The notes beneath the pieces were generated by a model. That model was not told the DNA's origin. It saw only the letters and a list, made by a program, of their open reading frames with translations, and ran no database searches. From Natribaculum luteum (GTDB lineage Archaea; Halobacteriota; Halobacteria; Halobacteriales; Natrialbaceae), in assembly GCF_023008545.1 (NCBI RefSeq), contig NZ_CP095397.1:2965199-3029198 (forward strand): a DNA stretch of 64,000 nt, in the 5' to 3' direction. The stretch's first letter is position 1. The number at the start of each line of letters is the position of its first letter. Below are positions 3,327 to 42,937 of the stretch, piece after piece. Both the position numbers and the translations under genes were made by a program.

Positions 3327-3440
3327 TCATACTGCCGGACATAACGGTTCAGACATCGATCACACTCGAGACGCTGTCGTCGCTGCCGACAGCCGTCGAG
3401 ATGCGATCGAGTATTCACTGACTGTTGTCCGGTAGTATCA
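3327..3440. repeat. Palindromic MITE-like element, family 1, copy 1
   Basis: A 108-bp element (3330-3437) flanked by TCA direct repeats at 3327-3329 and 3438-3440. The ends are inverted (left TACTGCCGGACA, right end complement TACTACCGGACAACAG). The centre holds a hairpin GCTGTCG...CGACAGC. The other good copies are at 9004-9114 and 40324-40437. This copy sits in the gap between the DsbA-like gene and the MFS gene and is the only one not touching a stop codon. Confidence 0.85.
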
Positions 3441-9003: not shown

Positions 9004-9114
9004 TCATACTGCTGGACAACACGGTTCAGACATCGATCGCACTCGAGACGCTGTCGTCGCTGCCGACAGCCGAGACGCGATCGAGTATGTACTGACTGTT
9101 GTCCGGTAGTATCA
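9004..9114. repeat. Palindromic MITE-like element, family 1, copy 2
   Basis: A 105-bp element (9007-9111) with TCA direct repeats at 9004-9006 and 9112-9114. It is nearly identical to copy 1 over its whole length, with the left end TACTGCTGGACAACACGG. The right-hand TCA is, on the minus strand, the TGA stop codon of the cobalamin adenosyltransferase gene. It fills the whole gap between the two convergent genes. Confidence 0.87.
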
Positions 9115-37285: not shown

Positions 37286-37969
37286 TTACTCTCGGCCAGT
37301 ACTGACCGGAACGACGGCCGGTGTGAGCGCCTTGCGAACGCCACTCGCGACGGCGTTCGGATCGGTCGTCGCGAGCGGCGGCACCGTCTCGACCGGGAGC
37401 CCGGTCATCCGCTCGAGTTCCGCCGGGTTCGTCCGTTCGGCGACGGTCTCGCCGGCGTACTCGTTGAGGACGATCGCGCGAACGTCGACGCCGCGACGCT
37501 GGAGTGCCTCGACCGAGAGCGCCGTGTGGTTGAGCGTGCCGAGTCCCGACCGGGCGACGAGCACCGCCTCGCACTCGAGGTCTGCGACGAGGTCGATCAC
37601 CTCGCGCTCGCCCGCAAGCGGGACGCGCAGACCGCCGATTCCCTCGACGATACCGACCTCGCATGTCTCGAGTTCGCGTTCGCAGTCGGCCAGCAACTCG
37701 TCGTAGGCGAGTGCCACACCCCCGCGTTCGGCGGCGACGCGGGGGGCGAGCGGTTCCTCGAGGTACTGGAGACACGTCGACGCGTCGGGGTCGCCACAGG
37801 CGGTCGCGACGACGTGGACGTCGTCGTCCGGCGGATGTCCCGTCTGGGCGGGTTTTATCGCTCGAGCGTCGACACCCTCCTCGCGAAGCCACGCCGTCAC
37901 CCCGGCAGTGACGACCGTCTTGCCGACGCCGGTGCCGGTGCCGACGACGGCGAGTGGACGCCCGTTCAC
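37286..37969 (-). CDS. bioD: Dethiobiotin synthetase
   Basis: 227 aa from a GTG at 37969 that overlaps the bioF stop (GTGA). N-terminal P-loop LAVVGTGTGVGKTVVTAGVT, then ARAIKPAQTGHPPDDDVHVV, GIVEGIGGLRVPLAGEREVI and LVARSGLGTLNHTALSVEAL. It carboxylates 7,8-diaminopelargonate with CO2 and ATP, the penultimate step of biotin synthesis. Last gene of the bioB-bioU-bioF-bioD series; the coupling to bioF is seen in the sequence. Confidence 0.95.
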   Translation of the reverse strand: MNGRPLAVVGTGTGVGKTVVTAGVTAWLREEGVDARAIKPAQTGHPPDDDVHVVATACGDPDASTCLQYLEEPLAPRVAAERGGVALAYDELLADCERELETCEVGIVEGIGGLRVPLAGEREVIDLVADLECEAVLVARSGLGTLNHTALSVEALQRRGVDVRAIVLNEYAGETVAERTNPAELERMTGLPVETVPPLATTDPNAVASGVRKALTPAVVPVSTGRE

Positions 37970-39174
37970 AGGATCCCGACCTCCTCGCCGGCAGCGCGGA
38001 ACGCCTCGAGACAGGCGACGACGTCGTCTTGGTCGTGGGTGGCCGTGGGCGCGACGCGGATTCGACTCGTCCCCTCGGGAACCGTCGGTGGACGGATCGC
38101 CGGCGTGAGAACGCCGCGATCGCGAATCCCGTCCGCGAGGTCGAGTGCGTCGCGGCGGTCGCCGACCAGGACGGGGAGGATCTGGGAGTCGCCGAGGACC
38201 GTATAGCCCATCGTCTCGAGGCCGTCCCGGAGATGGGCGACGTTCTCCCAGAGGCGTTCGCGAACGTCGCCGTGACGGGCGACGTGTAGCGCCTCGCTCG
38301 CGGCGGCGGCCGCGGTCGGCGCGAGACCGGTCGAAAAGACGAACGAGCGGGCGTCGTTGACCAGATACTCGATCAGGGCGTCGTCGCCGGCGACGTAGCC
38401 GCCCTGGCTCGCGAGCGCCTTCGAGAGGGTCCCGAGCTGGACGTCGACGCGATCTGCGAGCCCTTCGGCCTGGACGACGCCGCCGCCGTCGGCGTAGAGA
38501 CCGGTCGCGTGGGCCTCGTCGACCATCACCCACGCGCCGAACTCCTCGGCAGCGTCACAGATCGTTGCGAGCGGGGCGACGGTGCCGTCCATGCTGAACA
38601 CGGAGTCGGTGACGACGAGCCACGACTCGTCGTCGGCTCCGGGTCGATCGGCCTGCGCGGCGAGCCTCGAGCGGAGGTCCGACGCGTCGCAGTGGTCGTA
38701 GATTTCGACGTCGGCCCCGGAGAGCCGACAGCCGTCGACGATGCTCGCGTGGTTCAACTCGTCCGAGAAGACGACGTCCGGCTCGAGTGCGGTGATCGTC
38801 CCGACGTTCGCCGCGTACCCCGAGGAGAACGCGAGGGCGCGATCCGCCCCTTTGGTCTCCGCCAGCTGGCGCTCCAGGTCGTGGTGGACGATCGTATCGC
38901 CGGTGACGAGCCGGCTCGCGCCGGCACCGGTCCCGACGGTCGCGGCCGCCTGTCGAGCGGCGTTCTGTACCCGCTGATCGCCCGTCAACCCGAGGTAGTT
39001 GTTCGACGCGAAGACGAGCACCTCCTCGGCGTCGAGGACGGGGAGGCCGCCCTCCGGCGGCGGCGCGAAGTAGCCCCGCTCTGCGACGCGGTCGGCGGGC
39101 GCGAGCGTCCGCCTCAGGTCGGCTTCCTCGAGCGTGGCGACGCGTTCCTCGAGATCGAACCCACGGTCTTCCAT
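37966..39174 (-). CDS. bioF: 8-amino-7-oxononanoate synthase
   Basis: 402 aa PLP enzyme that condenses pimeloyl-thioester with alanine. Segments: VLVFASNNYLGLTGDQRVQN, GASRLVTGDTIVHHDLERQL, VVFSDELNHASIVDGCRLSG, VMVDEAHATGLYADGGGVVQ and the PLP lysine in QLGTLSKALASQGGYVAGDD. The N-terminus carries a 35-residue extension before the conserved core. It lies 84 bp downstream of bioU and overlaps bioD by 4 nt. Confidence 0.94.
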   Translation of the reverse strand: MEDRGFDLEERVATLEEADLRRTLAPADRVAERGYFAPPPEGGLPVLDAEEVLVFASNNYLGLTGDQRVQNAARQAAATVGTGAGASRLVTGDTIVHHDLERQLAETKGADRALAFSSGYAANVGTITALEPDVVFSDELNHASIVDGCRLSGADVEIYDHCDASDLRSRLAAQADRPGADDESWLVVTDSVFSMDGTVAPLATICDAAEEFGAWVMVDEAHATGLYADGGGVVQAEGLADRVDVQLGTLSKALASQGGYVAGDDALIEYLVNDARSFVFSTGLAPTAAAAASEALHVARHGDVRERLWENVAHLRDGLETMGYTVLGDSQILPVLVGDRRDALDLADGIRDRGVLTPAIRPPTVPEGTSRIRVAPTATHDQDDVVACLEAFRAAGEEVGIL

Positions 39175-39258: not shown

Positions 39259-40299
39259 TTAGAATCCCGGCATCAGCTCTGTGGGGCCCAGGACGCCGTA
39301 CTCTCCGGCCCGGTTCCGACGGACGGCGGCTTTCAGATAGCCGAGCGCCGGCCCGTTGACGTTTGCCTCCATGCTCGTCGCGTCGTCGAGTTCGAACGCG
39401 TTCGTTCCCGTCTCGCCGTCGAAGGTCGTCCCCGTCACCCGGACGGTCGTCGTCGTCGGCTTCTCGTCGCTGCGGACGTCCAGTATTCCGCCGACGGTGA
39501 CGTCCTCGGCGTCGCAGATGCCCGCACGCTCGAGCAGGACGTCGTCGGCGTGTTCCATGTCGTTGAACTCGATGACGCCGTCGTGTTCGTCGACGATCTC
39601 CTCGATCTCCTCGTCGCCCAGTTCGCGGGCGGTCTCGATGTCGTACTCCTCAAGGTGGGCGATGTCCTCGCGGACGGTGCCGCGGTTGTCCTCGTAACCC
39701 GACTTGAGACCGACGCCCCACCAGATGTCGACCGACTCGACCTCGACGAACGACTGGGCGGCGATCGCCGCTGCGCCGGTGAGAAAACCCGGCGTCGCGC
39801 CGGCCCCACAGACGAACGTGATACCCGACTCCTCGAACGCCGCCGTTCGCTCGTCGAGCATCCCGATCACGCGCGAACGCTTGAGAACGTCCACGAGGAC
39901 ACCCTCGTAGTCGGCGTCGACGAACCGATCCGCAACTCGAGGGATGAAGTCGTGTTCGTAGTTCGGCAGGGCGACGAGCACGGCGTCGATCTCCTCACTC
40001 ACGTCGATGACGTCGCCGATCGCGTCCTCCGTGGGACGGGCCTGCTCCGAGGCGACGACGCCTTTGTCCTCGCCGTGTTGTTTGACTGTGGCCGCGCCGC
40101 CATCGGCTGCGACCTCGTTGTCGATATTCCCTTCGGTGGCGTCGAGCAGTTCCTCGACGTCAAGTCCGTCGAAGTCGACCGCGACGCCGTGGCGGTCACA
40201 CGCCGCGACGGGGGTCAGGCCGTCTTTGTGCTGGCTGACCTCGAGCGTTCGTCGTCCGATACCGCCGGTTCCGAGTACTGCGAAGTTGACGTCGTCCAT
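39259..40299 (-). CDS. bioU: BioU-type (S)-8-amino-7-oxononanoate synthase / DAPA synthase
   Basis: 346 aa. N-terminal Rossmann motif NFAVLGTGGIGRRTLEVSQH, then LVALPNYEHDFIPRVADRFV, GVLVDVLKRSRVIGMLDERT, FVCGAGATPGFLTGAAAIAA, DNRGTVREDIAHLEEYDIET and EFNDMEHADDVLLERAGICD. These match proteins annotated 'saccharopine dehydrogenase-like' in cyanobacteria, among them BioU, a single-turnover enzyme that uses its own lysine amino group to convert KAPA to diaminopelargonate, replacing BioA. No bioA is present while bioB, bioF and bioD surround it, so BioU is the best reading. The lysine in DVLK (Lys140 by count) is the candidate donor. The call is from memory of the family plus context. Confidence 0.87.
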   Translation of the reverse strand: MDDVNFAVLGTGGIGRRTLEVSQHKDGLTPVAACDRHGVAVDFDGLDVEELLDATEGNIDNEVAADGGAATVKQHGEDKGVVASEQARPTEDAIGDVIDVSEEIDAVLVALPNYEHDFIPRVADRFVDADYEGVLVDVLKRSRVIGMLDERTAAFEESGITFVCGAGATPGFLTGAAAIAAQSFVEVESVDIWWGVGLKSGYEDNRGTVREDIAHLEEYDIETARELGDEEIEEIVDEHDGVIEFNDMEHADDVLLERAGICDAEDVTVGGILDVRSDEKPTTTTVRVTGTTFDGETGTNAFELDDATSMEANVNGPALGYLKAAVRRNRAGEYGVLGPTELMPGF

Positions 40300-40323: not shown

Positions 40324-40437
40324 TCATACTACTGGACAACAGTCAGTGAATACTCGATCGCGTCTCGCCGTCTGTCGCCGCTGGCGACAGCGTCTCGAGT
40401 GCGATCGATGTCTGAACCGTTTTGTCCAGCAGTATCA
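40324..40437. repeat. Palindromic MITE-like element, family 1, copy 3
   Basis: A 108-bp element (40327-40434) in the opposite orientation to copies 1 and 2, flanked by TCA at 40324-40326 and 40435-40437; the latter is the TGA stop codon of bioB on the minus strand. The ends are TACTACTGGACAACAGTC and its inverse CCAGCAGTA. It separates bioB from bioU inside the biotin cluster and could attenuate read-through. Confidence 0.87.
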
Positions 40438-41547
40438 GTCGTCGCTCGATTCTACGCTGGCGTTGCTCTCGACGGTGCCGACGGCGGGCTCGACCGGGTC
40501 GTCCCGACCGCGAGCTTTCACGGCCTCGGGATCGAAGTCGTTTACCGATCGGTTGGGCTCGAGCCCGGCGCGTTCGACGATCTCGATGTCCTCGCCGGGC
40601 GACTGCCCCTCCGTCGAGAGGTAGTCGCCGGTGAGGATGCCGTCCGCACCCGCCTCGAGCGGCAGATGCTGTTCGTCGGGGGCGAGGTTCGCCTCCCTGC
40701 CACCGGTGAGGCGCACTCGAGCCTCCGGGTGCAAGAGTCGGTAGACTGCGACCGTCTTGACGATCTCCTCGGTCGTGATCTCCGGCGTCTCGCCGCCGAG
40801 TTCGGTGCCGGCGATGGGGTTGAGGACGTTCACCGGCAGCGAGGAGATCCCGATCTCCTGTAAGGCGATGGCAGCGTCGACCCGATCGGTGGGCGTCTCG
40901 CCCATCCCGAGGATGACGCCCGCACAGAGGTCCATGCCGGCCTCCCTGGCCACCTCGAGGGTGGCGACGCGGTCTTCGAACTCGTGTGTGCCGACGACCT
41001 CGGGGAAGTAGTTCGGCGAGGTCTCGATGTTGTGATTGTAGTGCTGGATACCCTCGTCGGCCAGAATCGCGGCTTCCTCCTCGGTGAGGATGCCGAGCGA
41101 GGCGTCGATCTCGAGGTCACACTCCTCGCGAACCAGCCGGATGGCCTCGAGGACCTCCGCCCACTCCTCGGGGCGCTTCTCTTTCGAGACGCCCCGTTCC
41201 GCGACGACGATGCCGAATCGCTGGGCGCCGTCGTGTTCGGCGCGTTTCGCGGCCTCGAGGACTGCCTTCGGGCCGATGAAGTCGTACGTCTCGATGCCCG
41301 TATCGAAGTGGACCGACTGCGCACAGAAGCCGCAGTCTTCCGCGCAGTTGCCCGCCTTCGCGTTGACGATCGAGCAGGCGTCGACCGTGCCGTCGCCGAA
41401 ATGATCGCGAACGGCGGCTCCCGCCTCCGCGAGCGGTTCGACAGGCTGGGCGATCAGCGCCAACCCGTCAGTTCGATCGAGTTGCTCGCCGGCGAACACC
41501 CGCTCGAGTGCGTCGTCTACCGTCCGATTTCCCGTCTCGTAAACCAC
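40435..41547 (-). CDS. bioB: Biotin synthase
   Basis: 370 aa radical SAM enzyme that inserts sulfur into dethiobiotin. The 4Fe-4S motif CAEDCGFC follows VDACSIVNAKAGN, near residues 65-75. Further on: HYNHNIETSPNYFPEVVGTH, CAGVILGMGETPTDRVDAAI and SLPVNVLNPIAGTELGGETP. Start is a GTG at 41547; a TATA box about 25 bp upstream suggests a leaderless message. A BirA-like inverted repeat covers the start region. The stop TGA is the flank of repeat copy 3. Confidence 0.96.
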   Translation of the reverse strand: MVYETGNRTVDDALERVFAGEQLDRTDGLALIAQPVEPLAEAGAAVRDHFGDGTVDACSIVNAKAGNCAEDCGFCAQSVHFDTGIETYDFIGPKAVLEAAKRAEHDGAQRFGIVVAERGVSKEKRPEEWAEVLEAIRLVREECDLEIDASLGILTEEEAAILADEGIQHYNHNIETSPNYFPEVVGTHEFEDRVATLEVAREAGMDLCAGVILGMGETPTDRVDAAIALQEIGISSLPVNVLNPIAGTELGGETPEITTEEIVKTVAVYRLLHPEARVRLTGGREANLAPDEQHLPLEAGADGILTGDYLSTEGQSPGEDIEIVERAGLEPNRSVNDFDPEAVKARGRDDPVEPAVGTVESNASVESSDD

Positions 41548-41566
41548 GGCCTAGCGATTGGTTGAC
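41539..41566 (-). promoter_or_regulatory. Candidate BirA operator at the bioB start
   Basis: GTAAACC (41539-41545), 14 bp, GGTTGAC (41560-41566). The arms match as inverted repeats at six of seven bases and resemble the known BirA site TTGTAAACC-N14/15-GGTTTACAA, including the spacing. It lies between the TATA box and the second codon of bioB, where binding would block initiation. A BirA protein with a DNA-binding domain is not in this window. Confidence 0.55.
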
Positions 41567-41567
41567 G

Positions 41568-41577
41568 TAACTATAAT
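41568..41577 (-). promoter_or_regulatory. bioB TATA box
   Basis: ATTATAGTTA on the minus strand, centred about 25 bp upstream of the GTG start at 41547. The spacing predicts transcription starting at or within a base or two of the start codon, the common leaderless arrangement in haloarchaea. Confidence 0.5.
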
Positions 41578-41686
41578 CGTTGTGGTACGTCACAAATTTC
41601 GTCACGTTCGGGCCACAGCGACGGTCCGATAGCCGAACGTCGAGGTCGATGAGCCAGACGCCGGCTCGATCGTCAACCGATCGCAC

Positions 41687-42937
41687 TCACCGCGGCGTCT
41701 CCGCGCCCCACTTCTCGAGGGCCGTCGCCAGCTCGTCGTGGTCGTCGGCGTACTCCTCGAGCGGGACGCCCGCCATCGAGGCGTCGACGGACTGCCTGAG
41801 CGCCCTCGCGCCGGTTCGAGTGCCGTCCGGGTGGCCGTGGATGCCGCCACCGGCCTGGACGATAATGTCCGTCCCCAGCGCCTCGAGCAACTGGTCGACG
41901 ACGCCCGGGTGGAGGCCGCCGGAGGCGACCGGCAGGACGGGATTCAGCCCGTACAGGTCCGACGTGAGCCACTCGTTGATCCCCGGCGTGTCCTCGTTCT
42001 CGAGTTTGCCCAGTCCCGCGGTGCCGGTGTGGAGGTGATCGACGCCACAGAGGCGGGCGATCTGTGCGAGTACGCGCATCGAGACGCCGTGGTACTCGAG
42101 TCGGTCGAAGGCGGCGTGCATCGCGCGGTGGGCGTGGATCGCGAGACCGTGGTCGGCGGCGCGCTCGCGGACCGACTGGACGGCCGACCAGCCCGACGTG
42201 ATTACGTCGACCATGACGAAGCCGCCGCCGTGTTCGGCGACGAGGTCGACCCGTTCTAGCATCTCCGTCGTCTCCCCGGTGACGTTGACGAGGTAGTCTT
42301 TGCGTTCGCCCGTCTCCTCCTGGGCGCGGTCGCGCGCGGCGAGGCTCTCGGCGAGGCGATCCTCGAACGGGTTGAACGCCTGGTCGGTGAGGTTCTCGTC
42401 GTCTTTCAGCAGGTCGACGCCACCGAGCCACGCCTCCTCGCCGACGCGGGCGTGTGCCGCCGTCGAGAGGCCGACCTTCGGCTTCGGCACCGTCGCAAGC
42501 ACGGGGCGGTCGTCCGCGTCGAGTTTTTCCGTCGCCACGTCTGGCCCGAACAGTGGGCCCGGGAATCCCTCGACGATCGTCTCGGGCCAGCGACAGTCCT
42601 CGAGTCGGATCGTCTCGACAGCCTTCATCCCCATGATGTTGCCCGCGATACACGAGAGGATCTGCGCCATGCTCCCCTCCTCGAACAGGTCGGCGGGGTA
42701 GGCCACGGTGATCTCGTCGCCGTCGATTCCGCAGGCGACCGCCCCGAGGTCGGTGAACTCGTCCTCGTCGACGTGGAGGGCGGCCCAGGTCCCGTTCGAC
42801 GATTCGGAGGCGACGCGACTCGCCGCGCTCTCCATCGACATCCCTTCGCCCGGTTCGACGGTAAACTCACAGACCAGCTCGGTCTCCGACGGTTCGTACT
42901 CGAGGTCGAGGAAGTCGTCGTACTCGATTCCAGTCAT
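41687..42937 (-). CDS. rbcL: Form III ribulose-bisphosphate carboxylase
   Basis: 416 aa. The N-terminal domain starts MTGIEYDDFLDLEYEPSETE. The catalytic loop is GGVDLLKDDENLTDQAFNPF with the carbamylated lysine and the metal-binding Asp-Glu. Further on: VMVDVITSGWSAVQSVRERA, HAHRAMHAAFDRLEYHGVSM, HLHTGTAGLGKLENEDTPGI and VQAGGGIHGHPDGTRTGARA. Length and sequence fit archaeal form III, which works in AMP/nucleoside salvage (with AMP phosphorylase and ribose-1,5-bisphosphate isomerase, not seen here) rather than a Calvin cycle. No small subunit. Confidence 0.95.
   Translation of the reverse strand: MTGIEYDDFLDLEYEPSETELVCEFTVEPGEGMSMESAASRVASESSNGTWAALHVDEDEFTDLGAVACGIDGDEITVAYPADLFEEGSMAQILSCIAGNIMGMKAVETIRLEDCRWPETIVEGFPGPLFGPDVATEKLDADDRPVLATVPKPKVGLSTAAHARVGEEAWLGGVDLLKDDENLTDQAFNPFEDRLAESLAARDRAQEETGERKDYLVNVTGETTEMLERVDLVAEHGGGFVMVDVITSGWSAVQSVRERAADHGLAIHAHRAMHAAFDRLEYHGVSMRVLAQIARLCGVDHLHTGTAGLGKLENEDTPGINEWLTSDLYGLNPVLPVASGGLHPGVVDQLLEALGTDIIVQAGGGIHGHPDGTRTGARALRQSVDASMAGVPLEEYADDHDELATALEKWGAETPR

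Follow-up and report, generated by a model that had tools for sequence, protein, structure and literature searches.

A probable BirA operator running into the start of bioB in Natribaculum luteum and other haloarchaea

The biotin protein ligase BirA of E. coli is described as bifunctional in the available text of PMC4877710. For B. subtilis BirA, the accessible part of PMC4016012 reports that three operators, the biotin biosynthetic operator among them, are bound in a biotin- and ATP-dependent manner, and states that neither sequence nor spacing is the same in the operators of E. coli and B. subtilis. In a section of PMC3199775, BirA was proposed to be the most ancient known transcription factor. 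The bioA-bioB operator of E. coli K-12 has the same half-sites, GTAAACC and GGTTTAC, as the operator described here, but its spacer is 16 bp instead of 14 bp and 47 bp separate its end from the bioB start, whereas the haloarchaeal site runs into bioB codon 3 within an archaeal TBP/TFB promoter. In 2002 Rodionov et al. reportedly described archaeal BirA boxes upstream of bioY and of bio genes, with the consensus TTGTAAACC-N14/15-GGTTTACAA. Archaeal BirA boxes are an established kind of site, and the version embedded in a start codon is the new detail. The B. subtilis sites are described as lying in 5' UTRs, in contrast to the haloarchaeal bioB site, which extends from the promoter to codon 3. 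No description of the conserved start-codon placement, of two registers at bioB and bioY or of a haloarchaeal operator was found in a literature search with limited reach into subscription journals.

The site was analyzed in a stretch of 64,000 nucleotides from Natribaculum luteum (contig NZ_CP095397.1, positions 2,965,199 to 3,029,198), referred to as the window. A sequence-only reading had proposed a BirA-type operator, GTAAACC-N14-GGTTGAC, below a TATA box at the bioB start, with one half-site inside the first codons. An exact match, GTAAACC-ACGGCCTAGCGATT-GGTTGAC, was found at 41539-41566 of the window; with inverted GTAAACC/GGTTTAC-like half-sites and a spacer within about 14-16 bp it has the layout of a BirA box. 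The gene for the biotin synthase BioB (40435..41547, minus strand, 370 aa, GTG start; TIGR00433, E 4.8e-101) is read from the other strand, on which the sequence is ATTATAGTTAC-GTCAACC-AATCGCTAGGCCGT-GGTTTAC and the operator covers -19 to +9 of the GTG start. The upstream, non-coding half-site GTCAACC (41560..41566, minus strand) lies at -19 to -13. The downstream half-site GGTTTAC (41539..41545, minus strand) consists of the third base of the start codon followed by codons 2 and 3 (GTT TAC), which refines the earlier placement. Extension of the reading frame upstream was ruled out by an in-frame TAG at -6..-4. The TATA box ATTATAGTTA was located at 41568..41577 and a BRE-like stretch at 41580..41585 (-38..-33), both on the minus strand. 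The distance from the TATA box to the start suggests that the bioB transcript is probably leaderless. With up to two mismatches allowed, the operator pattern occurred at one place in the whole window, compared to 0.12 expected in shuffled sequences. A RuBisCO large-subunit gene (41687-42937, by Pfam) immediately precedes bioB and has the same orientation.

Conservation at bioB was scored over the 12 fixed positions of the operator, with the reversed motif as control. The first set held 90 upstream regions, 60 of them hand-picked from 58 genomes (roughly 130 strong matches were listed) and 30 from loci of family f1 including this genome; two rows of this set (G155 and G230 contig 11) had an internal stop. 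The second set, which overlaps the first in species, held 80 named loci, the best 80 of 133 found by peptide patterns. At least 11 of the 12 positions were present in all 90 regions of the first set and in 79 of the 80 loci of the second. The hand-picked regions scored 11 (41 regions) or 12 (19 regions), with the reversed control at 9 or lower, and the family f1 loci scored 12 in 24 cases and 11 in six. Among the named loci 50 scored 12, 29 scored 11 and one (L088) scored 9, while the reversed control reached 10 once and 22 of 1600 mononucleotide shuffles scored at least 10. The best match was located at -19 in 80/80 named loci, and a single offset from the start was seen across the sample except in two cases with a 13-bp spacer (G216 and G285). 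The haloarchaeal consensus was about TCGTMAAC(C/T)-N14-GGTTKACGA, many bioB left arms ending in T and not C.

For information content and codon usage, 138 sequences (the 80 named loci and 58 of the first set) yielded 123 distinct ones, of which 122 were used after removal of the N13 sequence (L254); G285 and G021, fetched at a different length, are outside this set. Most arm bases at bioB were close to 2 bits, and the inner spacer held 0.01-0.28 bit. Also conserved upstream of bioB were the TATA core TTAT at -29..-26 and, in the BRE-like stretch, CC at -38/-37 and AA at -34/-33. The absence of the inverted repeat in close relatives, named beforehand as an observation against a BirA operator, was thus not seen; both half-sites are kept in related haloarchaea while the spacer drifts, although the bioY spacer is partly kept at BRE/TATA-like bases. 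The closest named relative among the matches listed was Natribaculum breve, at 98% bioB identity.

A strict pattern, GTNAACC-N13..15-GGTTNAC, was searched for in the whole genome of 4.6 Mb in three contigs. It was found at two places, bioB and bioY, and the reversed pattern at none. The rarity of strict sites is only modest evidence, because base composition alone (65% G+C assumed) predicts about 0.5 such sites per genome. The strength of the case comes from both strict sites being located in promoters of genes for biotin synthesis or uptake, and from conservation. The second strict site is a perfect GTAAACC-N14-GGTTTAC situated 14 bp upstream of the bioY ATG; bioY is a biotin uptake gene (Pfam BioY, E 7e-40), and an ABC-transporter ATPase gene comes next. 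Relaxing the N14 pattern to three mismatches gave 54 places genome-wide, compared to 28 for the reversed control. Four sites with two mismatches (L006-L009) were rejected as BirA targets, since no protein match to bioB, bioU, bioF, bioY, ecfA or birA was found nearby. No operator was found before birA, the best scores being 7-9 of 12 in 30/30 loci and equal to the control; there is therefore no sign of birA autoregulation through this operator.

Upstream regions of bioY were sampled from the 277 genomes with a match, as the best 30 matches and 40 hand-picked ones, followed by 12 further genomes. A score of at least 10 of 12 was obtained in 80 of the 82 regions (70/70 and 10 of the 12 further genomes). 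Within the first 70 the reversed control did not exceed 9, and two sites (L182 and G128) scored only 10, one above the control maximum. The operator was not found near bioY in G136 and G260 (L319 and L320), though both carry the bioB site; the site-less bioY protein of G136 belongs to the BioY family by Pfam. Two of the 70 regions (L307 and L309), which lack an N14 site, were left out of the register count, and of the remaining 68 sites 55 end 14-15 bp before the first ATG. Within the bioY spacer a stretch resembling GAAG occurs together with a TT.A core. According to the available text of PMC4983044, haloarchaeal BRE and TATA motifs are CGAAA and TTWT; the two bioY elements fit these, the TATA motif loosely. 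The core-to-start distance is about 28 bp at both genes, and the operator is situated 23-24 bp further upstream at bioY than at bioB.

Genus g47 of family f9 had a 13-bp spacer before bioY in 6/6 sampled cases (L309 and L312-L316) and before its sole strong bioB (G216, L254), and G285 had N13 at bioB and N14 at bioY. Co-evolution of this spacer switch with BirA geometry was considered and set aside, as G285 mixes the two spacers and an alignment of BirA proteins (one row of 33 residues) gave no obvious cause.

The strongest of three matches in the genome to the biotin/lipoate ligase family is birA (G000:C1:2655720-2656652, 311 aa). Its product contains an HTH_11 domain (residues 5-54), a ligase domain (93-208) and BPL_C (262-307), the layout of a Group II biotin protein ligase, and scored 55.9 bits against the TIGR00122 repressor-domain model, under the cut-off of 70. 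PDB chains named BirA match the protein; one of them, 1bia, which we take to be E. coli BirA, matches over residues 7-293. E. coli BirA is likewise a ligase with an N-terminal HTH. The two other ORFs of the family (275 and 248 aa), judged by eye, resemble lipoate ligases. The genome thus does not encode only an HTH-less BirA, the second observation that had been named as speaking against the operator, and the BirA-type reading of the repeat gains support from the presence of an HTH-bearing BirA together with the two conserved half-sites.

BirA matched in 281 of 292 genomes of the class. Two of these (G050 and G272) matched in the HTH part only, leaving 13 genomes without BirA. bioY was absent in 13/13 of these and in 2 of the other 279, and none of the 13 had a bioB match better than 1e-5. 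No HTH-less BirA was seen among the matches listed, so the natural contrast is between presence and absence of BirA only. The strict pattern was present in 222/292 genomes, compared to 46 for the reversed control, and in 2/13 genomes without BirA (G079 and G089), there with spacers of 13 or 15 only.

The repeat is most probably, at a probability of roughly 0.92, an operator of BirA, at which BirA carrying biotinyl-AMP would repress bioB and bioY. It is very unlikely that it belongs instead to a different transcription factor that recognises a BirA-like sequence. Bacteria do have other biotin regulators, BioR and BioQ, according to the available parts of the literature; the arms, however, match those of the E. 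coli operator, BirA carries an HTH among the matches listed, and absence of BirA coincides with absence of bioY.

Constraint on the coding start, which the sequence-only reading had suggested, was borne out at codon 2. This codon was GTT in 122/122 distinct sequences, compared to 109 of 2383 later bioB Val codons (4.6%) in the 80 named genes, a background that may be too low since the available text of PMC4983044 reports raised A/U content at the second codon in H. volcanii. Codon 3 was TAC in 120 and GAC in 2 of the 122 sequences and, outside that set, GAC in G216 and G285 and AAC in G021; every one of these changes (Y/D/N) falls on the free base of the operator. An explanation of the conserved bases by translation of a leaderless mRNA or by protein constraint on the BioB N-terminus, with no repressor site involved, could draw on the downstream arm being coding and on MVYETGN being kept as a peptide. 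Peptide conservation in the 80 named loci is partly selected, because the search patterns include MVYETGNR, but codon choice is not. The bias at codon 2 indicates that the constraint acts on DNA, and the variation of residue 3 only through the free base also speaks against this explanation. The upstream arm would be outside a leaderless transcript, yet it invariably has A at -16 and -15, and the same arms occur before bioY at another register, upstream of the gene. This explanation was judged even less probable than that of another regulator.

The bioB start codon was GTG in 104/122 distinct sequences (L040-L119 and L210-L269). In H. volcanii, GUG is the start in 6% of leaderless transcripts according to the available text of PMC4983044, so the GTG share at bioB is high; a GTG start may lower bioB translation.

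As an operator of BirA, the site could function as follows. At plentiful biotin, BirA loaded with biotinyl-5'-AMP would dimerise and bind both half-sites. At bioB the dimer would cover the DNA reaching from immediately below the TATA box as far as codon 3, the stretch where RNA polymerase is expected to open the duplex and initiate what is probably a leaderless transcript, so that bioB and the genes behind it would be repressed. The bioY transporter genes would be repressed by the same dimer, the operator there flanking the predicted BRE and TATA box on both sides. That the site activates bioB and bioY is the least probable alternative, as at both promoters the site coincides with core elements or the presumed start, and a dimer bound there would be expected to stand in the way of TBP/TFB or polymerase. 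A more tentative proposal, which we hold at slightly under even odds, is that the shift of 23-24 bp lets one dimer act by two mechanisms: at bioY it would keep TBP/TFB off the promoter, and at bioB it would block opening of the start site. The bioB operator would then fix a rare Val codon, the choice of Tyr, Asp or Asn at residue 3 and perhaps the GTG start, and biotin synthesis and uptake would be shut off at different biotin levels.

Downstream of bioB, on the same minus strand, the window contains a bioU-like gene (39259..40299, 346 aa; NF047886, E 1e-94, 317 bits where the curated cut-off is 600), a bioF-like gene (37966..39174, 402 aa; TIGR00858, 402 bits, narrowly under its curated cut-off of 426) and bioD for dethiobiotin synthase (37286..37969, start predicted; TIGR00347, 111 bits, exceeding its cut-off of 83). 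The order bioB-bioU-bioF-bioD was also found in 63/80 named loci. Ten of the 80 had none of bioU, bioF and bioD downstream of bioB, five of them Haloferax, and still had an operator scoring at least 11 of 12. The other seven had bioU only (four), bioF only (two) or bioU and bioF (one), some loci being cut short. In a survey of 31 Halobacteria, as given in the available text of PMC6138646, bioA was found in none, bioB in 19, bioF in 18 and bioD in 14. The earlier claim that the operator controls the whole bioB-bioU-bioF-bioD series is made plausible by the conserved order and strand, but read-through from bioB to bioU has to be assumed, because a dispersed repeat of about 110 bp intervenes in this genome. 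This element, with terminal inverted repeats (TACTRCTGGACAA), is located at 40327-40434, directly after the bioB stop codon, and related copies are present at 3330-3437 and 9007-9111 of the window. The terminal-repeat pattern matched 24 times genome-wide, once about 58 bp upstream of birA, and the element appears MITE-like.

Haloarchaea would offer a case where a bacterial-type vitamin sensor acts on TBP/TFB promoters, and where two registers of one operator can be compared. The bioB gene would be a clear example of a regulatory site that dictates both the codon choice and the N-terminal residues of an enzyme.
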